Notes under the pieces: generated by a model
The model's input: the letters and a program-made list of their open reading frames with translations, nothing else
Told to the model about the DNA's origin: nothing
The model's database searches: none
Shown here: positions 2,674 through 12,306 of the stretch, piece by piece
Layout: the number at the start of each line of letters is the position of its first letter
Position numbering within the stretch: the first letter of the stretch is position 1
Position numbers and translations under genes: made by a program
Assembly (NCBI RefSeq): GCF_003634315.1
Contig: NZ_RBXL01000001.1
Span: 1-64,000, forward strand
Length of the DNA stretch: 64,000 nt
DNA from: Thiocapsa rosea
GTDB taxonomy: Bacteria; Pseudomonadota; Gammaproteobacteria; Chromatiales; Chromatiaceae
Direction: 5' to 3'

Positions 2674-3438
2674 TTAGGCTGCGAGCTGTTCTCCGGCTAG
2701 AGAAATCGCTAGAAAATCATCGGCGTTCAGCGATGCGCCGCCGATCAGACCGCCATCGATATCCGGCTGCGCCAGCAACTCGGCGGCGTTGCCGGGCTTC
2801 ATACTTCCTCCGTAGAGGATGCGCAGCTTCTCGGCGATCGTAGCGTTCAGTGCAGCGATCCGACCGCGAATATAGGCATGAACGGCCTGCGCCTGCTCGG
2901 GCGTCGCCGTCATTCCGGTGCCGATCGCCCAAACCGGTTCATACGCGATCTCGATCCCGGCGAAGGCATCGATCCCGATGCGCTCGACCACGCCGTCGAT
3001 CTGAGCGGCAATCACCGACTCCATCTCGCCCGCCTCGCGCTGCTGCAGCGTCTCGCCGACACACAGAATCGGGGTCAGGCCGCTCTCGGTCGCGCGCGCC
3101 AGCTTCTGCGCGATGGATGCCTCGTCCTCGCCGTAGTACTCGCGACGTTCGGAATGACCGCAAATGACATAGTGACATCCGAAATCGGCCAACATCAAGC
3201 CCGACACCTCGCCGGTATAGGCGCCGCCGGTTTCGGTACAGAGGTTTTGAGCACCGAGCCGTACCGAGCTACCGGCAAGCAACTGCTCGCCGAGATAGAG
3301 ATACGGAAAGGGCACGCACACAGCGATCTCGGTCTTCGAGAGAGCACCGGACCCGGCCACGACGCCGTTCAACAGTGCCTCGGCACTGGACTTGCTGCCG
3401 TTCATTTTCCAGTTTCCGGCGATCAGCGGCTGGCGCAT
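2674..3438 (-). CDS. tpiA: Triosephosphate isomerase
   Basis: A 254-residue TIM-barrel enzyme that interconverts dihydroxyacetone phosphate and glyceraldehyde 3-phosphate in glycolysis, gluconeogenesis and the Calvin cycle. Visible catalytic motifs are GNWKMN (Lys), CGHSERR (His) and AYEPVWAIGTG (Glu). The phosphate-binding end reads LYGGSMKPGN and GGLIGGASL. ATG 3438 is chosen because it follows a GGAGGGG Shine-Dalgarno and gives the standard MRQPLIAGNWKMN N-terminus. An in-frame start 30 bases upstream adds residues not typical of the family. Confidence 0.97.
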   Translation of the reverse strand: MRQPLIAGNWKMNGSKSSAEALLNGVVAGSGALSKTEIAVCVPFPYLYLGEQLLAGSSVRLGAQNLCTETGGAYTGEVSGLMLADFGCHYVICGHSERREYYGEDEASIAQKLARATESGLTPILCVGETLQQREAGEMESVIAAQIDGVVERIGIDAFAGIEIAYEPVWAIGTGMTATPEQAQAVHAYIRGRIAALNATIAEKLRILYGGSMKPGNAAELLAQPDIDGGLIGGASLNADDFLAISLAGEQLAA

Positions 3439-3514
3439 CGGACCCCTCCAGGTAAGTCGAGCCCGCAAATCTAGCCGTCCTCGGTGCGGAAATCAAGCCT
3501 CGTTTGATTTACAC

Positions 3515-3603
3515 TTTGAAATGCGTCCGGTGCTTCGTGTCTTGTCCGAGCCCGTTGGCCATGGTCGGAGCCACCGACGAGCGCCGTCCAGACGCATTTC
3601 AAA
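3515..3603. repeat. 89-bp imperfect palindrome between tpiA and smpB
   Basis: A 13-bp perfect inverted repeat, TTTGAAATGCGTC (3515-3527) and GACGCATTTCAAA (3591-3603), encloses 63 bases that can also pair around CCGTTGGCCATGG. It resembles the nearby 82-85 bp family in length and layout but has different ends. It may be a relative of that family or the bidirectional regulatory region of the divergent genes tpiA and smpB. Confidence 0.55.
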
Positions 3604-3711: not shown

Positions 3712-4188
3712 ATGGCAAAAGGAAAGAAGAAGAACGATGGTGGCTCGACGATCGCGCTCAACAAGAAGGCCGGGCACGAGTATTTCATCGAGCAACGCAT
3801 CGAGGCCGGTCTCGTGCTGGAAGGCTGGGAGGTCAAGAGCCTGCGCGCCGGTCGCCTTCAGCTCAAGGAAGGATACGTCAAGATCCTCCACGGCGAGGCA
3901 TTCCTGATCGGTGCGCACATCTCCGCCTTGGCCGCCGCCTCCACCCACGTCAACCCGGACCCAACCCGCAGCCGCAAGCTGCTGCTCAAACGCAGCGAGA
4001 TCAGCCGCCTGATCGGCCAAACCGAGCGCGCCGGCTACACCCTGGTCCCTACGGCCATGTACTGGAAGCGCGGCAAGGCCAAGCTCGAAATCGGGCTCGC
4101 CAAGGGGAAAAAGCAGCACGACAAGCGCGACACGGAGAAGGACCGCGACTGGCAGCGCGACAAGGAACGCCTCTTCAAGACCGGCTGA
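3712..4188 (+). CDS. smpB: SsrA-binding protein SmpB
   Basis: A 158-residue tmRNA-binding protein. SmpB carries alanyl-tmRNA to stalled ribosomes in trans-translation. Visible features are the N-terminal [38 protein letters not shown] in the OB fold, and the basic tail [20 protein letters not shown], which reads as the mRNA-channel helix. It lies 46 bases before ssrA, its RNA partner. No good purine-rich Shine-Dalgarno is seen, because the sequence before the ATG belongs to a dispersed repeat. Confidence 0.97.
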
Positions 4189-4234
4189 GCTTGCCGCGGA
4201 ACCGCGGTTCCTCTAGAGTGTCGTACTGATACCT

Positions 4235-4878
4235 GGGGGCGACATGGTTTCGACGTGGGTCGCAAAACCTAAGGTGCATGCCGAGGTGCGGGTGACCTCG
4301 TAAATCCAACCGCAAATCTATAGTTGCCAACGACGACAACTACGCTCTCGCGGCTTAGGCCAGCGAGCCTCTGACCGTTCCCTGCCTATGGGGGGCGGAT
4401 TCCAGGGGTAACATTACATGGGATCGCGGTGACGGGGGCTCGGACCTGATCCGCTAAAACCTAATTCGAGATCGCCGACTGATCGCCCTGCCCCTCGGGC
4501 GGCGGAAGGCTAAAAATAATAGAACGGGCTAAGCATGTAGGACCAAGGGCGGAGGGCTTGCGGACGCGGGTTCGATCAACGCACAGGTCGCCTTTGCTCG
4601 TAAGGGCAAAGTGAAAACGGGGCTCACATCGGCGAACCCTGCAGTCGGCTCAGACCGACACGGCAACGCCGAGGGGTAGGAAGAGGGCCAACCTCAGACC
4701 TGCCCTGTAGAGACTCATAGAGACGCTGATCCGGCAACGGTGGAGCGTCCACTAGGATCCGCGGCAACGCGGATAATACGCTCCGCATCCGGACCCATCG
4801 GGTCGTATCCGATCCGGATGAAGGCATAGTCCAGGCCTCACCGAAAGGTGGGGAATCACTGTCCCGCCGCCTCCACCA
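4235..4878 (+). ncRNA. ssrA: tmRNA gene, interrupted by a group I intron
   Basis: The 5' end GGGGGCGACATGGTTTCGAC and 3' end CCGCCGCCTCCACCA form the tRNA-like domain. The tag frame at 4326-4358 reads ANDDNYALAA followed by TAG, a variant of the proteobacterial degradation tag. The gene spans 644 bases, far above the usual 350-400. The excess is a 285-base insertion in the T-loop. Joining 4235-4576 to 4862-4878 gives a 359-nt RNA with a normal T-arm (GCGGG, loop TTCGATT, CCCGC). Splicing is therefore needed for a functional acceptor domain. Confidence 0.95.
4577..4861 (+). other. Group I self-splicing intron in the tmRNA T-loop
   Basis: The 285-nt intron sits after U of ...GGTTCGAT and ends in G, the group I rule. 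P1 is the exon end CGAUC paired with GGUCG (4587-4591 region), with U.G at the splice site. A P2 hairpin is CTTTGC/GCAAAG (4592-4611). The P7 strands are GACT (4712-4715) and AGTC (4828-4831), the latter inside AAGGCATAGTCC, close to the conserved S element. A P9 hairpin with a GAAA tetraloop lies near 4838-4850. Exact ends come from restoring the tmRNA T-arm. There is no reading frame inside. The subgroup is not assigned. Confidence 0.9.
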
Positions 4879-4887
4879 ATCAGCGGG

Positions 4888-4920
4888 CCTTGGAGTACAC
4901 TCCAAGGTCCGTTTTCTTTT
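4888..4920 (+). terminator. Rho-independent terminator of ssrA
   Basis: A perfect 20-base palindrome, CCTTGGAGTACACTCCAAGG, is followed by TCCGTTTTCTTTTT. It starts ten bases after the encoded CCA of tmRNA. Confidence 0.88.
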
Positions 4921-4921
4921 T

Positions 4922-5371
4922 GTGTTCGGCAAGTCTGTGGCAAACTATCGTAAAGTCAACGCGCTGAGCGACATCGACGCAGCCTATATCGCCGGTTTGA
5001 TCGACGGCGAGGGCACCGTTTCCCTGCTGCGGAAGCACAAACAGGACAACCGCCAGGTCGTCGTCTCCATTTCCAACACAGACCGCCCGTTGATCAACTA
5101 CCTGCTCGAAACCATCGGAGCCGGCAAGGCGACAGGCAAGCGCACCTATTCCGACCGGCATACGCCGAGTTTCACGTACGCCATCACCAACCGTCACGCA
5201 CTCGATCTGCTTCGGCAGGTCTCCCCGTACCTTCGGACCTACAAAGCCCGGCGAACCGAGCTGCTCCTTGCCGACTACATCAGGCTCACCCCGCGCAATG
5301 GCCGATACTCCCTGGCCGGAGCATTGGAAAGGGCTGCCTTTATCGAAGCATTCTTCGCAATCGAGCCGTAG
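4922..5371 (+). CDS. LAGLIDADG homing endonuclease (single motif)
   Basis: A 149-residue protein with one LAGLIDADG motif at residues 22-31 (YIAGLIDGEG), followed by a beta-rich core. One motif implies action as a homodimer. The start is a GTG at 4922 within the T-run of the ssrA terminator, or a GTG at 4937; neither has a strong Shine-Dalgarno. It lies 44 bases past the end of ssrA, on the same strand, outside the intron. It is probably the mobility partner of the ssrA intron, but that link is inferred from position only. Confidence 0.85.
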   Translation: MFGKSVANYRKVNALSDIDAAYIAGLIDGEGTVSLLRKHKQDNRQVVVSISNTDRPLINYLLETIGAGKATGKRTYSDRHTPSFTYAITNRHALDLLRQVSPYLRTYKARRTELLLADYIRLTPRNGRYSLAGALERAAFIEAFFAIEP

Positions 5372-5447
5372 TTTTCAGGAGAGCGACTTAGCCCGATCCG
5401 TAACGACCCCTTCGCAGTGCGCCAGACGTGGGCACGTCATTGATGTC

Positions 5448-6480
5448 TCAGAGAGACGTGTCCGGCGAACATTTGGCAATCGCCGCCCACTTACTGCTGG
5501 TGAGCTTGCCTTCGAATCCGTCGAGCAGCCGATTGAACAGCTTCACCTGTCGTTCGTTCAATGGCGTGATCGCCCAGTGCTGCCAGAACCCTGTCTTGAC
5601 GAGCACGTTGTCGAGGGTGTGCTGTGCCTGGTCGACGGCGAGATGGAGTGTGTCGAGGAACCAAGCCAGCCACTCGGTGACATCCATCGATCGCTTCTGG
5701 GTCCGTTCCAGAATGTCGTAGTACCCCCTGCGCTCCCGCTGGATCTGCGCCGACAGGCTGTAGAAGCGTTGCGGACTGCCGTCGGCGCGCGCCAGCAGCA
5801 GATCGCCGATAGCTCGGGGGATACGGCCATTGCCGTCGTCGAAGGGGTGCAGGGTGACGAACCACAAATGGCCGAGCCCAGCCTTGATGAGCGGAGGGTC
5901 GTTCGAGGCGTCATTGACCCAATCGAGGAATCGACGCGTCTCTGCGTCCAGACGTCCCGCCGGCGGTGCCTCGAAATGGACACGCTGTCGGCCGATCGGG
6001 CCGGACACGACCTGCATCGGACCGTTACGATCCTCGCGCCAAGTTCCGACCTTGATCTTGGATAGACCTGAGTAGCCGGTGGGGAAACAGCGCGGCGTGC
6101 CAGCCGAATAACCGCTCGCGCGTCACCGGCGCATCGCAGTTGGCGGTGGCATCAAGCACCATCTCGACCAGGCCTTCGACGTGACGATCAACCGGGGCCA
6201 GCGCGCCGATGTCCACGCCAAGACGACGGGCGATGGACGAACGCACGGATTCGACATCGAGCTGCTCACCCTCGATCTCACTGGTCTTCACCACATCCTC
6301 GGTGAGCGCGCCAAGGCTGGCCTGATCGCGCAGCGCCATGCCGACATCGGCCAAGCGGCCCATCAAGAGATCCTGGGCGCGACTCACGTCCGCCATCGGA
6401 CCGGCCAATGTCGCCAGGTCAAAACGCCAGTTCGGCCAGTCGTTGGTCTGCCAGATGTACTTGCAATCACCGCTGTTCAT
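5448..6480 (-). pseudogene. Fic family AMP-transferase, frameshifted
   Basis: Two reading frames together form one Fic protein. The N-terminal part (from ATG 6480, MNSGDCKYIWQ) has the DUF4172-type domain and the TSEIEGE helix typical of an inhibitory alpha-inh segment. The C-terminal part contains the catalytic HPFDDGNGRIPR (HPFx[D/E]GNGRxxR). The frames join at a run of four G at 6081-6084 (plus strand). Removing one base restores LFPTGYSGLSKIKVG across the junction. Fic enzymes transfer AMP from ATP to target proteins. This may be a recent mutation or a sequencing error. Confidence 0.8.
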
Positions 6481-6761
6481 GCGGAGATTATGGGCCGGAT
6501 TCTCCGCATCGGGCAATTTAGTCGCATTCAGCCGCGAGGACAATCGCGTCACAAACGGCGAAGCCGCATCAAGCTGATCGGGGCCAGCCGCAAAACCGGG
6601 GATAACAGCTCAAACCAGGGGCTCGACCGTTGACCCGGCGTCAGAACGCGCCCGATACTTCAACTAACGCAGCAGTGGCGATGTTGGGCCACCAGCGCAG
6701 AACCGCGACCGGTCGAGTCATCGCTCTGCCGACAACCCAACGCCCCCCGGGAGATCGCCAG

Positions 6762-7136
6762 GTGTCTAGCCCCAAGCTTTTGAAAGCCCTCTTCGCCTCG
6801 ACACTCTTCGCTGTGTCGCTCACGACCCAGGCGGAACTACCCGAATGGCTGCCCAGCGCGATCCAACTGCCCGTGCCCCATGAAATCGTCATGGATCAAG
6901 CCCTGGGCACACGGACCCATATCCTGCAAATCCAGCTACCCAGTGATCCCGCACCTCACTTTGCCGACTGGGGTTCGGCCCTGACCGAGCAGGGCTACAC
7001 GGTCGACGAGAGCATGTTGTTCGATGGCCGGTTACTGTTTTCGGGCAAGGATATCGAGAGCGGTCAGATTGCGATCCTGCCCTCGGATCAAGGTGAATTC
7101 ATCCTGCAGGTCGATGTCTCTCGGCTGACGCCCTGA
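6762..7136 (+). CDS. Putative exported protein of unknown function
   Basis: A 124-residue protein from a GTG at 6762 with GGGAG just upstream. Residues 1-25 look like a signal peptide (KLLKALFASTLFAVSLTTQA), with cleavage expected after AQA or TQA. The mature part of about 100 residues has no motif I recognise. A start at 6630 would place the hydrophobic stretch internally, so the GTG is preferred. Confidence 0.55.
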   Translation: MSSPKLLKALFASTLFAVSLTTQAELPEWLPSAIQLPVPHEIVMDQALGTRTHILQIQLPSDPAPHFADWGSALTEQGYTVDESMLFDGRLLFSGKDIESGQIAILPSDQGEFILQVDVSRLTP

Positions 7137-7510
7137 GCCTCGTCGCCACGGACGGAAGTGACCAACCGGAGATCGACAAGGCCGCGTCGCAAGGCCACTC
7201 ACGGCGCCCGAGATCACTGCAGGCGCCTGTGCCTTGGCCAAAGCGGTCGGGATGCCCAAGAGGCTCGGCATCAACCATCCTTTCGTGGTAGGGAACCACG
7301 CGTGTCGCCTTTGCCGCTATCAACGTGTTTCTGCGCATCGACCGACGGCACGTAGCCCTGTTGCCTCACCCGGCCTGTACACAAAAAGGTTTCCGCGCAT
7401 GGAGCGCGGAGAGCATTTCCACAACCGCCGCTCCCGACATCTCGCGCGACCCGAGCAATTGGCATATGCTGGCGCGTATGTCTTCGCCCTACCCGTCGGA
7501 TCGATCTCCT
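7137..7510. other. Intergenic region before vapB
   Basis: No convincing gene is present. Two short hairpins are visible: CGTGGTAGGGAACCACG near 7285, and CCGCGC/GCGCGG near 7395, the latter about 100 bases before vapB. No clear promoter is recognised. Confidence 0.4.
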
Positions 7511-7753
7511 ATGCACCCTGAACGCCACGTCCGCCTCTTTCGCAACGGTCGCAATCAAGCTTTACGCATCCCGAGGGAGCTCGAGCTGGACGCCGACGAG
7601 GCGATTATCCGCAAGGACGGCGAGCGTCTGATCGTCGAGCCGGTGAAGCGCCGGCCGGACCTCGCCACGCTACTCGCCGGATGGGAGCCGCTGGACGAGA
7701 CCCTCCCCGACGTCGACGAAGGGCTATTGCCTTTGGACGACATCCGACTCTAA
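7511..7753 (+). CDS. VapB-type antitoxin (AbrB fold)
   Basis: An 80-residue protein. The N-terminal swapped-hairpin DNA-binding part reads VRLFRNGRNQALRIPRELEL and EAIIRKDGERLIVEPV, typical of VapB antitoxins. The acidic tail (LDETLPDVDEGLLPLDDIRL) would bind the toxin. ATG 7511 gives the usual N-terminus; an in-frame ATG at 7478 is possible. The stop TAA forms the first bases of a dispersed repeat that separates this gene from its vapC. Confidence 0.85.
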   Translation: MHPERHVRLFRNGRNQALRIPRELELDADEAIIRKDGERLIVEPVKRRPDLATLLAGWEPLDETLPDVDEGLLPLDDIRL

Positions 7754-7833
7754 ACCGCGTCCAGAGCGAGATGCTGATTTTCGAGTGAGCTCGACGTTTG
7801 GTGCACCCACAGCCGTTAGCGGGGACGCGGTTT
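7752..7833. repeat. 82-85 bp dispersed repeat, copy 2 (type A)
   Basis: Bounded by AAACCGCGTC and GACGCGGTTT. The interior (CCAGAGCGAGATGCTGATTT ...) is nearly identical to copies at 33241 and 34780. The vapB stop codon overlaps its left end. Confidence 0.85.
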
Positions 7834-7859
7834 AAAATGATCTGTTTTCTAAATCTCTT

Positions 7860-7942
7860 AAACCGCGCCGACTCCGGCGGTCGTCAAGTCCGCCGGAGCC
7901 GATCCCATCGAAAAACATCGCATACCGCGCCGGGCGCGGTTT
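7860..7942. repeat. 82-85 bp dispersed repeat, copy 3
   Basis: Bounded by AAACCGCGCC and GGCGCGGTTT, with an internal hairpin around CTCCGGCGG / CCGCCGGAG. It lies 26 AT-rich bases after copy 2 and ends 7 bases before the vapC ATG. The pair can fold into one long hairpin. Confidence 0.8.
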
Positions 7943-7949
7943 AAGTGCC

Positions 7950-8387
7950 ATGGCAAACATTGCGGGCCTGCGCTACCTGCTCGACACCAACATCCTCTCC
8001 GCGCTGATTCGTCAACCCCGGGGACCGGTGGCCGGGACGCTTGCTCGGCGCGGCTACGGGAGTGTCTGTACCAGCATCGTCGTGGCCGCCGAGCTGCGTT
8101 TCGGTGCCCGTAAGCTCGGCTCCAAGTCCCTGACCGACAAGGTCGACGACCTATTGGCCTCGCTGCCCGTGCTGCCCTTGGACTCCGAAGCCGATCGGAC
8201 CTACGCGGACATACGACTTCGGCTGGAGCGAGCCGGGACGCCCATCGGACCCAACGACCTGCTGATCGCGGCGCATGCTCTGGAGTCCGGTCTGATCCTC
8301 GTGACCGACAATGTGGAAGAATTCGTGCGAGTCGCCGGGCTGCGAGTGGAGAATTGGCTGAACAGCCCGGCGTCCGAGGCGAAATGA
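7950..8387 (+). CDS. VapC-type PIN-domain ribonuclease toxin
   Basis: A 145-residue PIN protein. The acidic active-site positions are visible in YLLDTNILSALI, AAELRFGA, PIGPNDLLIAAHA and LVTDNVEEF. It is the expected toxin partner of the VapB at 7511-7753, but 196 bases filled by two repeats separate the two genes instead of the usual overlap. No Shine-Dalgarno is visible before ATG 7950, since the upstream sequence is repeat. Confidence 0.88.
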   Translation: MANIAGLRYLLDTNILSALIRQPRGPVAGTLARRGYGSVCTSIVVAAELRFGARKLGSKSLTDKVDDLLASLPVLPLDSEADRTYADIRLRLERAGTPIGPNDLLIAAHALESGLILVTDNVEEFVRVAGLRVENWLNSPASEAK

Positions 8388-8680
8388 TTCTCCGGACAGT
8401 CCGGCTTCGGTGCAGTCAGCGGCGCCGGGTAGAGAATTGTCTGCGTTAGGGCGGCCAGCAGGCACCTAAATGCAGCCCGTCTTGCCTCGATGGCAAAAGG
8501 AAAGACTCGACCCCTCGACGGCACGGCCTGGTGCACCTGAATCGCAGCCCGGCTACCCGCTCCGTGCGCCCCGAGGCGCTGGCGACCGAGTTCCTGGTCG
8601 TGCTCGATTGATGGACAAAGAACAATGATTGAAACCAAAAATGGCGCCGCCCGCACAACGACCGCCGTCAGGACTCGTAA

Positions 8681-10840
8681 ATGAGCGCCAACTTCCAACA
8701 ACTCGCCAACTTCATCTGGTCCGTGGCCGATCTGCTGCGCGGACCTTACCGCCCGCCGCAGTACGAGCGCGTGATGCTGCCGCTCACCGTGCTAAGGCGC
8801 TTCGATGCCGTGCTGGCGCCCAGCAAGGAGGCCGTGCTCAAGCGCCATGCCGAGCTGCGCAGCAAGGGCATCCCCAACATCGACGCCATCCTCAACAACC
8901 GGGCCTTGGGCGACGACGGTAAGCCGCTGGGCTTCCACAACCACAGCCAGCTCGATTTCCAGAAGCTCAAGGGCGACCCGGACAACATCGGCCGCCACCT
9001 GGCCGATTACATCAACGGCTTCTCCGAGAACATCCGCAAGATCTTCGAGCGCTTCGAGTTCGACAAGGAGATCGAAAAGCTCGAAGAATCCAATCGGCTC
9101 TACCAGGTGGTCGCCCAGTTCGCCGAGATCGACCTGCACCCGCGCAAGGTCGACAACATCACCATGGGCCTGGTCTTCGAGGACCTGATCCGCCGCTTCA
9201 ACGAAGCCGCCAACGAAACGGCCGGCGATCATTTCACGCCGCGCGAAGTGATTCAGCTCATGGTCAACCTGCTGCTGGAGCCCGACACCCGGGTGCTCAC
9301 GCAGGCCGGCATCATCGTCACCATCTGCGATCCGGCCTGCGGCACCGGCGGCATGCTGGCCGAGGCACAGAACTGGATTCGCGCCCACAACGAGCAGGCC
9401 ACGGTCAAGGTCTTCGGGCAGGACTACAACCCACGCTCCTACGCCGTAGCCGCCTCCGACCTCTTGATCAAGGGCCACAAGGATGGTCAGGTGGTGCTGG
9501 GCAACACCCTCACCGACGACCCGTTTCCGGATCACCGCTTCGACTACTTGCTGGCCAACCCGCCGTTCGGCGTGGACTGGAAGGCGGAGAAAAAGATCAT
9601 CGACCGCTGGCCCAATTTCCGTGGCTATAACGGCAAACTGCCGCGCATCAACGACGGCGCCCTGCTGTTCCTGCTCTACATGATGAGCAAGTTCCAGGAC
9701 TACACAGCGGGCGACCGCGACAGGCCCGGCTCGCGCACCGCCATCGTCTTCAACGGTTCGCCCTTGTTCACCGGCGGAGCCGGCAGCGGCGAGAGCGAGA
9801 TCCGGCGCTGGATCATCGAGCGCGACCGGCTCGAAGCCATCGTCGCCCTGCCCGAGCAGATGTTCTACAACACCGGCATCGGCACCTTCATCTGGGTCGT
9901 CACCAACCGCAAGGCCGCCCACCGCAAGGGCAAGATCCAGCTCATCGACGCCCGCGAGCGCTACACGCCGATGAAGCGCAGCCTCGGCGACAAACGCCGC
10001 TATCTTGATCAGACCGCCATCGACGCCATCACCCGCGAACACGGCGCGCTTGAGAGCAGCAAGACCAGTCGCGTCTTCGACAACACCGACTTCGGCTACC
10101 GCCGCATCAGCGTGCTGCGCCCGCTACGCCTGCGCTTCGAGTTGACGGACGAAGCCCGCGAGCGTTTCCTCAACACCTGCCCGGAATTGTTCGATGCCCT
10201 GCAGTCGGTGCAGGAACAGCTCGGCAGTGAACCGCACCTGGACTGGAACCGCGTCTGGGATGACGTGCAGCAGGTGTTCAAGACCCTGCCCGATAACGTC
10301 GACGGTTGGGCTAAGGGCGCCAAAGGCACGGCGCAGAAGAAGATCTTCCGCGAGTGCTTCACCTGCGTGGACCCCGAGGCCGCACCGGTGATCGCCAAGA
10401 TCCACAAGATCGAGGCGCTGGACCGCGCCGACCTGTTCCCCGACCAGACCCTACCCGACGAACTCGCAAAGGACGATCTCTACGCCTTGCTTGGCCTCTT
10501 CAAACTCCCCTCTCCCCCACGCGGGAGAGGGGCCGGGGGAGAGGGGGTCTTCATCGAGTACGAATCCGACCCTGCCCTGAAGGACGCCGAGAACATCCCG
10601 CTGAAAGAGGACATCGTCAGCTACGTGCTGCGCGAAGTGCGCCCCTATGTCGCCGATGCCTGGATCGACCGCACCACCCTTGACGAGCAGGACGGCGGCA
10701 TCGGCAAGATCGGCTACGAGATCAACTTCAACCGCGTGTTCTTCCAGTACCAGCCGCCGCGCCCGCTGCATGAAATCGATGCGGAACTCGCCGGTGTGGA
10801 GCAGCGGATCCTGGAGTTGTTGCGGGAGGTGACGGAGTGA
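8681..10840 (+). CDS. hsdM: Type I restriction-modification methyltransferase subunit
   Basis: A 719-residue N6-adenine methyltransferase. The N-terminal HsdM bundle covers about residues 5-140. AdoMet motif I, DPACGTGGML, is near residue 217 and catalytic motif IV, NPPFGVDW, near 293. It modifies host DNA with HsdS. It is long for the family, partly because about 14 residues (LPSPPRGRGAGGEG) come from a repeat inserted in frame at 10506-10549. The stop overlaps the GTG start of the next gene (GTGA). The 293 bases upstream carry no recognised gene. It reads as intact. Confidence 0.92.
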   Translation: MSANFQQLANFIWSVADLLRGPYRPPQYERVMLPLTVLRRFDAVLAPSKEAVLKRHAELRSKGIPNIDAILNNRALGDDGKPLGFHNHSQLDFQKLKGDPDNIGRHLADYINGFSENIRKIFERFEFDKEIEKLEESNRLYQVVAQFAEIDLHPRKVDNITMGLVFEDLIRRFNEAANETAGDHFTPREVIQLMVNLLLEPDTRVLTQAGIIVTICDPACGTGGMLAEAQNWIRAHNEQATVKVFGQDYNPRSYAVAASDLLIKGHKDGQVVLGNTLTDDPFPDHRFDYLLANPPFGVDWKAEKKIIDRWPNFRGYNGKLPRINDGALLFLLYMMSKFQDYTAGDRDRPGSRTAIVFNGSPLFTGGAGSGESEIRRWIIERDRLEAIVALPEQMFYNTGIGTFIWVVTNRKAAHRKGKIQLIDARERYTPMKRSLGDKRRYLDQTAIDAITREHGALESSKTSRVFDNTDFGYRRISVLRPLRLRFELTDEARERFLNTCPELFDALQSVQEQLGSEPHLDWNRVWDDVQQVFKTLPDNVDGWAKGAKGTAQKKIFRECFTCVDPEAAPVIAKIHKIEALDRADLFPDQTLPDELAKDDLYALLGLFKLPSPPRGRGAGGEGVFIEYESDPALKDAENIPLKEDIVSYVLREVRPYVADAWIDRTTLDEQDGGIGKIGYEINFNRVFFQYQPPRPLHEIDAELAGVEQRILELLREVTE
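10506..10549. repeat. GC-rich palindromic repeat inside hsdM
   Basis: CTCCCCTCTCCCCCACGCGG is followed by its near-complement GAGAGGGGCCGGGGGAGAGG. This hairpin type is widely dispersed in proteobacterial genomes. Here it is read in frame as LPSPPRGRGAGGEG without breaking hsdM. Confidence 0.65.
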
Positions 10841-12306
10841 GTATTCGCCGCCCAGAAGACGCAATGCTCGGCATCTTAGCCGAGCTGCGCAAACTGCCTC
10901 GCGAAACCGAATGGGTCGAGTTCAAGCATAACCGCGCTGATCCGGAGGATATCGGCGAATACCTTTCTGCCCTTGCGAACTCCGCCGCGCTGGCTGGCAA
11001 GGTCAGCGCTTGGTCGGTATGGGGTTTGGATGACACCAGCCACGATATTCTCGGCACCACCTTCGACCCGGCATCCGTCAAGATCGGCAATGAGGAGCTG
11101 GAAAGCTGGCTGCTGCGCCTGCTCTCACCCAAGATCAACTTCCGCTTCCACGGACTGCAGGCGGAAGGCGCAAGCGTGGTGCTATTGGAGATCGGCGCGG
11201 CGTTCCGTCATCCGGTGCAGTTCAAGGGCACCGAGTTTATCCGTGTTGGCTCCTATAAGAAGAGACTGAAGGACTTTCCGGAGAAAGAGCGGGAGCTGTG
11301 GCGTGTGTTCGACCGCATCCCGTTCGAACGGGAGATCGCCGCCGACGACGTTGCCGCCGAAGAGGTGCTCCGACTGCTGGACTACCCGGCCTATTTCGAC
11401 TTGCTTTCCCTGCCGCTTCCCGAGGGACGGGATGCCATCCTATCGGCTTTGGAGGCCGACACCCTCATCGCACGCGGCAACGCCGGCGGATGGAATATCA
11501 CCAATTTAGGTGCCGTGCTGTTCGCCAAGCGCCTAGCCGACTTCCGCGTTCTGGCGCGTAAGGCGGTGCGGATAGTGCTCTATAGGGGTGAAACGCGGGT
11601 CGAAACCGTGCGCGAGCAGGAAGGCAGCAAGGGGTACGCGGTCGGTTTTGATGAGCTGATTGGCTTCATTACCCAGCTGCTGCCCAGCAACGAGGTTATC
11701 GGCCGGGCCCTACGTAGGCAGGTGCCCATGTTCCCCGAGCTAGCGATCCGCGAGCTTGTGGCCAACGCACTGATCCACCAGGATTTCCACCTGACCGGCA
11801 CCGGTCCCATGGTGGAAATTTTCGCGAGCCGCATGGAAGTCACCAATCCCGGTTTACCGCTGGTTCAGACCGACCGCTTTCTCGACAGCCCGCCACGCTC
11901 CCGCAACGAGGCACTGGCCTCCTTCATGCGCCGCATCGGCGTTTGCGAGGAGCGTGGCAGTGGCGTGGACAAGGTGGTCTCCCAGACCGAGTTCTACCAG
12001 CTCCCCGCCCCCTTGTTCGAAACCACGGAGGAACATACCCGCGCCGTGCTGTTTTCCCACCGGGAGTTCAAGGCAATGGACAAGGCCGATCGCATCCGCG
12101 CCAGCTACCTGCATGCCTGTCTGCGCTACGTCCAGCGGGACTATATGACAAACACCACCCTGCGCGAGCGCTTCGGCATCGACGAAAAGAACAGCTCCAT
12201 GGTCTCCCGCATCATCAGGGACACCCTCGCAGCCGGTTTGATTTGCTGCCACGACGACACCGTGGGCAGCCGCGCTCGAAAATACCTGCCGAGGTGGGCG
12301 CGATGA
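10837..12306 (+). CDS. AlbA_2 / divergent AAA_4 ATP-binding protein
   Basis: A 489-residue protein. The N-terminal AlbA_2 (Schlafen-like) domain includes ETEWVEFKHN and FIRVGSYKKRL. A middle GHKL-type ATP-binding region contains AIRELVANALIHQDF and EERGSGVDKVV. A C-terminal winged-helix part follows. Such proteins are often lodged in restriction loci and are thought to be regulators or effectors; the role here is not known. The GTG start overlaps the hsdM stop. It separates hsdM from hsdS and is followed by a second copy of the hsdM tail. Confidence 0.8.
   Translation: MSIRRPEDAMLGILAELRKLPRETEWVEFKHNRADPEDIGEYLSALANSAALAGKVSAWSVWGLDDTSHDILGTTFDPASVKIGNEELESWLLRLLSPKINFRFHGLQAEGASVVLLEIGAAFRHPVQFKGTEFIRVGSYKKRLKDFPEKERELWRVFDRIPFEREIAADDVAAEEVLRLLDYPAYFDLLSLPLPEGRDAILSALEADTLIARGNAGGWNITNLGAVLFAKRLADFRVLARKAVRIVLYRGETRVETVREQEGSKGYAVGFDELIGFITQLLPSNEVIGRALRRQVPMFPELAIRELVANALIHQDFHLTGTGPMVEIFASRMEVTNPGLPLVQTDRFLDSPPRSRNEALASFMRRIGVCEERGSGVDKVVSQTEFYQLPAPLFETTEEHTRAVLFSHREFKAMDKADRIRASYLHACLRYVQRDYMTNTTLRERFGIDEKNSSMVSRIIRDTLAAGLICCHDDTVGSRARKYLPRWAR

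Follow-up and report, generated by a model that had tools for sequence, protein, structure and literature searches.

The window, the whole 64,000-nt stretch of Thiocapsa rosea DNA analyzed here, carries smpB and, downstream of it, a tmRNA gene (ssrA) that is split in its T-loop by a 285-nt insert; past the end of ssrA come a terminator-like hairpin and a gene for a single-LAGLIDADG homing endonuclease (Table 1). The insert sits directly ahead of the last T-loop base, between bases 6 and 7, and this site (TTCGAT followed by T) is position 7 in the tmRNA intron numbering as we read it in PMC11915505. The Rfam tmRNA model RF00023 matched positions 4243 to 4578 (173.4 bits), its alignment ending within the T-loop. 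ARAGORN detected no tmRNA in the window and none in the 644-nt form of the gene, and it called one 359-nt tmRNA with the tag ANDDNYALAA once positions 4577 to 4861 were removed. The same behavior was seen in four of four intron-bearing relatives tried, in which a tmRNA was called after removal of the intron. ssrA is the sole tmRNA match above the cutoff in the 6.1-Mb genome, with seven weaker matches below it.

An initial annotation of this DNA had proposed that an insert with these bounds splits the T-loop and that its removal restores the T-arm and a 359-nt tmRNA. Both proposals were borne out, by ARAGORN on the joined exons and by the comparison with related ssrA genes that the annotation had suggested along with the tmRNA model. 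Among 11 Thiocapsa genomes, including that of the window, five had the intron, four had an uninterrupted T-arm, and two lacked an ssrA match. In the two empty alleles compared (genomes G117 and G129), homology to the window ended precisely at base 4576, and the empty alleles thereby gave the exact bounds of the insert.

Farther downstream, positions 5448 to 12306 of the window hold defense-like cargo: Fic and DUF4172 pieces, a PIN-domain protein, HsdM, and an AlbA/HATPase protein. The corresponding place in G129 is occupied by a gene pair that was identified by eye as ParD/RelE-like.

Table 1. Features of the ssrA locus, in window coordinates
Feature	Position	Strand	Basis
smpB, tmRNA partner protein	3712-4188	+	PF01668, 3.8e-58
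ssrA with insert, 644 nt	4235-4878	+	
ssrA 5' exon, to T-loop base 6 of 7	4235-4576	+	RF00023; ARAGORN on joined exons; end of empty-allele homology
Tag reading frame, ANDDNYALAA plus stop	4326-4358	+	ARAGORN
Group I intron, 285 nt, no sense-strand ORF of its own seen	4577-4861	+	Empty alleles; helices; covariation
P1: 4573-4577 with 4586-4590, U-G pair at 5' splice site	4573-4590	+	Helices and covariation alignment
P3: 4618-4623 with 4780-4785	4618-4785	+	2 of 6 pairs changed on both sides among homologues
P4: 4629-4634 with 4667-4672; P5: 4644-4648 with 4655-4659; P6: 4674-4680 with 4699-4705; P6a: 4683-4686 with 4692-4695	4629-4705	+	Helices and covariation alignment
P7: 4712-4715 with 4828-4831, encloses P7.1, P7.2, and P8; invariant	4712-4831	+	Helices and covariation alignment
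P7.1: 4722-4727 with 4744-4749; P7.2: 4757-4763 with 4768-4774; P8: 4786-4792 with 4814-4820	4722-4820	+	12 pairs changed on both sides
P9, GAAA loop	4836-4853	+	5 of 7 pairs changed on both sides
ssrA 3' exon: last T-loop base, T-stem, acceptor strand, CCA	4862-4878	+	Empty alleles; ARAGORN
Terminator-like hairpin between ssrA and endonuclease gene	4882-4913	+	14 pairs, then T run
Single-LAGLIDADG homing endonuclease gene, 149 aa, outside intron, start codon uncertain	4922-5371	+	PF14528; I-MsoI; I-CreI fold
Right end of block absent from empty G129 allele	5372-5431	+	Homology to G129 resumes at 5432

Anatomy of the ssrA insert

All features by which the initial annotation had recognized a group I intron were located: a U preceding the 5' splice site, a G at the end of the insert (position 4861), P1, P7, the S-like element AAGGCATAGTCC, and a P9 capped by GAAA. 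The presence of both P7.1 and P7.2 suggests that the intron belongs to subgroup IA. We aligned 10 distinct introns, of which five are near-identical and come from one genus. In this set, 27 of the 70 pairs had both sides changed and 96.0% of the cells were paired. Shuffles gave 13.4 such pairs, none of 500 reaching 27, and sliding the partners by 1 to 3 columns gave 3 to 10. P7 was invariant across the homologues and thus contributed no covariation, and P1 varied on one side only. When folded without constraints, the complete 644-nt RNA was more stable than its shuffles (z = -3.4, 20 shuffles) and contained most of the helices.

The Rfam group I model RF00028 gave no match in the insert at E ≤ 1 and none across the whole genome, and its gathering threshold was not reached. 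When four homologous intron-bearing loci were scanned, the tmRNA model alone exceeded its threshold in all four and RF00028 was not reported; because the same miss recurred in each, we take it as a limit of the model. The insert is not a member of family RF00028. A search with a group I covariance model, which the initial annotation had put forward as a check, thus came out with the result that it had formally listed against its own reading, whereas the homologues, the empty alleles, and the covariation support an intron. Supported by exact empty alleles, by covariation, and by homologues that share the site, the identification of the ssrA T-loop insert as a group I intron is in our judgment virtually certain. 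In this organism the intron is presumably removed from the tmRNA by splicing, and unspliced tmRNA, with its T-arm split, would probably not be charged.

The endonuclease gene and its distribution

The more novel part of the locus is the gene neighboring ssrA, which the initial annotation had not noticed. It begins 44 nt past the CCA end of ssrA, beyond the terminator-like hairpin (three terminator-like sites were found in the region versus 1.2 expected). Its product matched PF14528 (1.2e-6, over the cutoff) and I-MsoI (1.3e-9, or 7.7e-15 by profile). The monomer is predicted to have an I-CreI-type fold: the best eight structure matches of its AlphaFold2 model (pLDDT 89.6) were I-CreI or variants, with TM scores of 0.70 to 0.73. 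The Thiocapsa endonuclease, known here from its sequence and predicted fold, is thus like I-CreI and I-MsoI in fold, length, and GLIDGEG motif but differs from them in sequence (17 to 20% identity) and in not being intron encoded. Residue D28 of DGEG, which we take to be the catalytic acid of the LAGLIDADG motif, was invariant in 13 of 13 aligned rows and aligned with the D of DGDG in I-MsoI. The gene is under purifying selection, with dN/dS values of 0.13 to 0.17 in three Thiocapsa pairs. In several relatives the ATG is preceded by a purine-rich stretch resembling a ribosome-binding site; the copy of G184 has a clear start. For the Thiocapsa gene, we could not recognize a clear start codon accompanied by a ribosome-binding site, and a scan of positions 4100 to 5500 found no sigma-70-type promoter. 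NCBIfam held no family for any of three endonucleases searched.

We first scanned 84,980 species genomes from a public set with a pattern-based method and a five-row profile, and eight loci were confirmed: two in Thiocapsa, one each in Thiohalobacter and Sedimenticola, three in gammaproteobacterial metagenome-assembled genomes (MAGs), and one in a Nitrospirae MAG. All eight endonuclease genes were located 43 to 92 nt 3' of an intron-bearing ssrA. The tmRNA of the Nitrospirae MAG carries a T-stem of its own and the tag ANTELALAA, and the host of this locus is uncertain, since the MAG contig measures 3.3 kb.

We then evaluated a class sample of 369 Gammaproteobacteria, the genome of the window among them. 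A covariance model made from the 3' half of the intron matched 23 genomes, two of which (G317 and G528) were excluded because RF00028, not the tmRNA model, matches their loci, leaving 21 intron genomes. A 13-row endonuclease profile run on the same 369 genomes matched 20. The endonuclease family or its remains occurred in 17 of the 21 intron genomes versus 3 of the 348 without intron (Fisher P = 7.8e-23), and every one of the 20 copies, measured from the first part that survives where the gene is decayed, started 42 to 173 nt past the end of ssrA. The three copies in genomes without intron (G279, G213, and G321) were all broken. As for the four intron genomes without a profile match, G501 retains a short remnant, and no trace of an endonuclease was found in G290, G281, and G231. 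The remnants in G105 and G501 fell below the profile threshold, and neither is counted among the 17.

Narrower and wider samples were also searched. Among 210 genomes of the same order there were nine endonuclease loci, seven adjoining an intron-bearing ssrA and two being remnants (G084 and G127). The order of G506 (20 genomes) added three more intron genomes, with the endonuclease intact in one and broken in two. No endonuclease was found in two intron genomes of the family sample, G065 and G130. A phylum-wide draw of 299 genomes, searched with the intron model under stricter filters, returned only the window's own genome.

Some loci deserve separate mention. Those of G317 (L078) and G528 (L079) hold a different group I intron, with RF00028 scores of 83 to 85 bits and a weak match to the tmRNA intron model. 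In G084 (L056) and G127 (L120), an uninterrupted ssrA is followed by other genes and then, 8 to 9 kb downstream, by a C-terminal endonuclease remnant; the intervening genes of G084 are Wadjet-like (DUF3375, MksE-like, SbcC-like, and JetD), and those of G127 look alike by eye. In G213, the ssrA 3' end with an endonuclease remnant occurs twice, 8.4 kb apart (C29:150574 and 158969; L097 and L101). Shortly past the endonuclease gene, the ssrA 3' end recurs as an exact 26-nt copy in G244 (L065) and G384 (L073) and as a decayed copy in G529 (L060) and G184 (L046); these copies resemble an att site or the footprint of an insertion.

Over all distinct genomes, 17 intact and 13 broken copies (G508, G531, G358, G384, G255, G392, G501, G075, G023, G138, G105, G860, and G844) accompanied an intron, and three broken copies did not, the distant remnants of G084 and G127 being left out of the latter. 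"Intact" here denotes a single open frame across the profile and does not imply a start codon. The endonuclease of G234 is divided over two contigs and was counted as present, neither intact nor broken. States were set by hand from a separate reading of the loci for G244 and G384 (both with a second ssrA 3' end) and for G392, and the remnants of G105 (sequences and alignments) and G501 were read individually. Decay of the endonuclease beside a retained intron is evident in G105, where most of the gene was lost between short repeats. No intact-looking copy was seen beside an uninterrupted ssrA in the sampled genomes, and the contrast between intact state and intron presence is by itself not significant (Fisher P = 0.10). 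The state of the copies points, indirectly, in the direction expected if an active enzyme cannot coexist with an uncut empty site.

Phage relatives and known systems

Searches of mobile elements gave the following picture. With intron DNA as the query, blastn found nothing in phage and plasmid collections, and no endonuclease was found in plasmids. Phage records yielded 27 distant endonuclease matches, 15 of them listed at 31 to 33% identity over 68 to 79% of the protein. The first profile confirmed no endonuclease in the viral_contigs set, but a later pattern scan did find phage relatives, with related introns in eight IMG/VR contigs, all eight matched by the intron model. Three of these introns (in L127, at 3164 to 3595, L132, and L134) enclose, in antisense orientation, a LAGLIDADG frame of 144 codons that belongs to the same family (77.7 to 81.0 bits); the endonuclease family thus occurs both inside and outside tmRNA introns. 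The three phage introns share with that of the window the T-loop site, the match to the intron model R1, and the endonuclease family but differ from it in that the frame lies inside the intron, in antisense orientation.

Other phage contigs were unusual in another respect. L128 and L131 (the same sequence where printed) and L129 have T-loop group I introns, of 281 nt in L128 and 236 nt in L129, in apparently permuted tmRNA genes. RF04321 scored 47.9 bits in L128 and L131 (threshold, 47), and ARAGORN reported a permuted tmRNA in L128 and L129 only with the intron removed; L128 also yielded a second, standard tmRNA. In Table 3 of PMC11915505, permuted forms and intron forms have separate entries, and no combined form is listed.

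The T-loop tmRNA intron is an already known type. A survey published in 2025 reports 883 intron-form tmRNA sequences from 21 phyla (PMC11915505), and its position-7 introns resemble that of the window in site, in the U before the 5' splice site, the 3' G, and the U-G pair of P1, in length (∼290 nt), and in the P7.1 region. LAGLIDADG genes lie inside 36 of the 883 introns (4.1%, a share that the survey calls low), after P9 or in P7.1. The endonuclease of the window lies outside the intron, 3' of ssrA, and the accessible part of the survey makes no mention of flanking genes. The outboard arrangement of the endonuclease is therefore the variant. We found no description of an endonuclease of this kind at ssrA in the open-access literature, and an earlier mention is possible.

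A comparable arrangement is found in cyanophage S-PM2, in which the free-standing endonuclease gene F-CphI likewise lies beside a gene, psbA, that is split by an endonuclease-less intron (PMC6083498, PMC3984707). This endonuclease cleaves the version of the gene that lacks the intron, and presence of the intron prevents self-cleavage; such phage pairs are described as collaborative homing (PMC6083498, PMC3984707). The two systems differ in that the phage case concerns a protein gene and an endonuclease of the Endo VII type, whereas the Thiocapsa case concerns a chromosomal bacterial RNA gene and a LAGLIDADG protein whose cleavage activity we infer. The hallmark of collaborative homing, an endonuclease gene adjoining the split gene and lying outside its intron, was found in the window, in all eight loci of the first scan, and in 17 of the 21 intron genomes.

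Proposed collaborative homing and competing explanations

We consider it probable that the intron and the outboard endonuclease, taken as a whole, form a collaborative-homing pair. We infer its steps, namely, splicing in this organism, dimerization, the cleavage site, protection, and co-conversion, as follows. The gene-less group I intron that interrupts the tmRNA T-loop would be spliced out, restoring the T-arm, the acceptor stem, and charging. The single-LAGLIDADG endonuclease, encoded past the ssrA terminator, would work as a homodimer, cleaving an ssrA without intron in the T-arm or close to it. The T-arm reads GCGGGTTCGATTCCCGC, and its flanks are inverted repeats, as would befit an enzyme made of two identical subunits. 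The intron would split the cleavage site and so protect the donor, and repair of a cut empty allele would copy the intron and co-convert the 3' exon, the terminator, and the endonuclease gene, the last because its start lies ∼60 nt from the insertion point.

Allele comparisons bear on the final step. Compared with the empty allele of G129, the window is changed over positions 4577 to 5431, from the first intron base to 60 nt beyond the endonuclease stop, and the 17-nt 3' exon is common to both. Between G129 and G125, the changed block measures 1,002 versus 128 bases, and a stretch of ∼96 bases close to its right end matches sequence located farther along in G129. The changed blocks would fit a single event that brought the intron, the 3' exon, the terminator, and the endonuclease gene, and they are no proof of one.

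A tight co-phylogeny of intron and endonuclease would have been expected and was not found. The introns fall into two subtypes (nine A and eight B among 17 compared). In 17 loci, consisting of 16 of the 17 intact ones (G125 omitted) and G138, the endonuclease distance was 0.42 within intron subtypes and 0.43 between them, and Mantel correlations of the endonuclease were 0.26 with the intron and 0.44 with the tmRNA exon (0.29 and 0.32, respectively, without the Nitrospirae row). From these values, intron and endonuclease are not strictly co-inherited. Since the partners track each other so loosely, the main rival is an ordinary free-standing endonuclease that targets the 3' end or flank of ssrA and carries only itself, the intron moving independently, for example, by reverse splicing, and both sharing the locus because it is conserved. 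In favor of this rival, the endonuclease follows neither intron subtype, its correlation with the exon is no weaker than that with the intron, and remnants of it adjoin an uninterrupted ssrA in G279, G213, and G321. However, this explanation accounts neither for the strong association with the intron (17/21 versus 3/348) nor for the absence, in this sample, of intact copies without intron, and we regard it as unlikely, though the most serious competitor of collaborative homing.

The endonuclease gene might instead be passenger cargo of islands that integrate at the ssrA 3' end. The cargo downstream of ssrA varies, and a copy of the ssrA 3' end follows the endonuclease at P < 0.01 in 4 of the 21 loci tested (23 loci in all). 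Yet the other 17 tested loci have no such copy at this level (G305 at 0.03), the endonuclease gene is invariably the first one past ssrA, with the remaining cargo varying between loci, and at L050 no ORF of at least 120 aa in the 4 kb past the copy was recognized as an integrase (one ORF scanned), so that we hold this origin to be improbable. Still less credible is that the protein serves as a maturase aiding the splicing of the adjacent intron. Certain LAGLIDADG proteins do act as maturases, and the profile matches a solved one, 2ab5 (1.6e-6), but 13 introns adjoin broken copies, the helices still pair in the aligned introns of G075, G105, G023, and G138, and self-splicing is cited for a tmRNA intron from a different species (PMC2729099). 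That the split gene is an assembly artifact or a dead ssrA, a suspicion to which the failure of RF00028 to recognize the insert might lend itself, can be dismissed, because independent genomes carry the same insert (four other Thiocapsa) or related ones (other genera), and this ssrA, the only tmRNA match above the cutoff in its genome, has an intact tag and adjoins smpB.

Returning to collaborative homing, we lean toward a more general proposal, held with less assurance than the pairing itself: most gammaproteobacterial tmRNA introns may be one half of a conserved chromosomal collaborative-homing cassette. An I-CreI-like homodimer would read the near-palindromic T-arm, the intron would split and shield this site, and all parts would be co-converted, occasionally across phyla, with phages carrying the inside arrangement.

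A practical consequence is that an ssrA gene with this intron is missed by ARAGORN. Should the outboard gene prove to be the mobility partner, then most gammaproteobacterial tmRNA introns have, or recently had, an endonuclease, and collaborative homing, if it operates here, would extend to bacterial chromosomes and to the gene for ribosome rescue. The genus Thiocapsa alone offers natural empty, intact, and decayed alleles, which makes direct tests possible.
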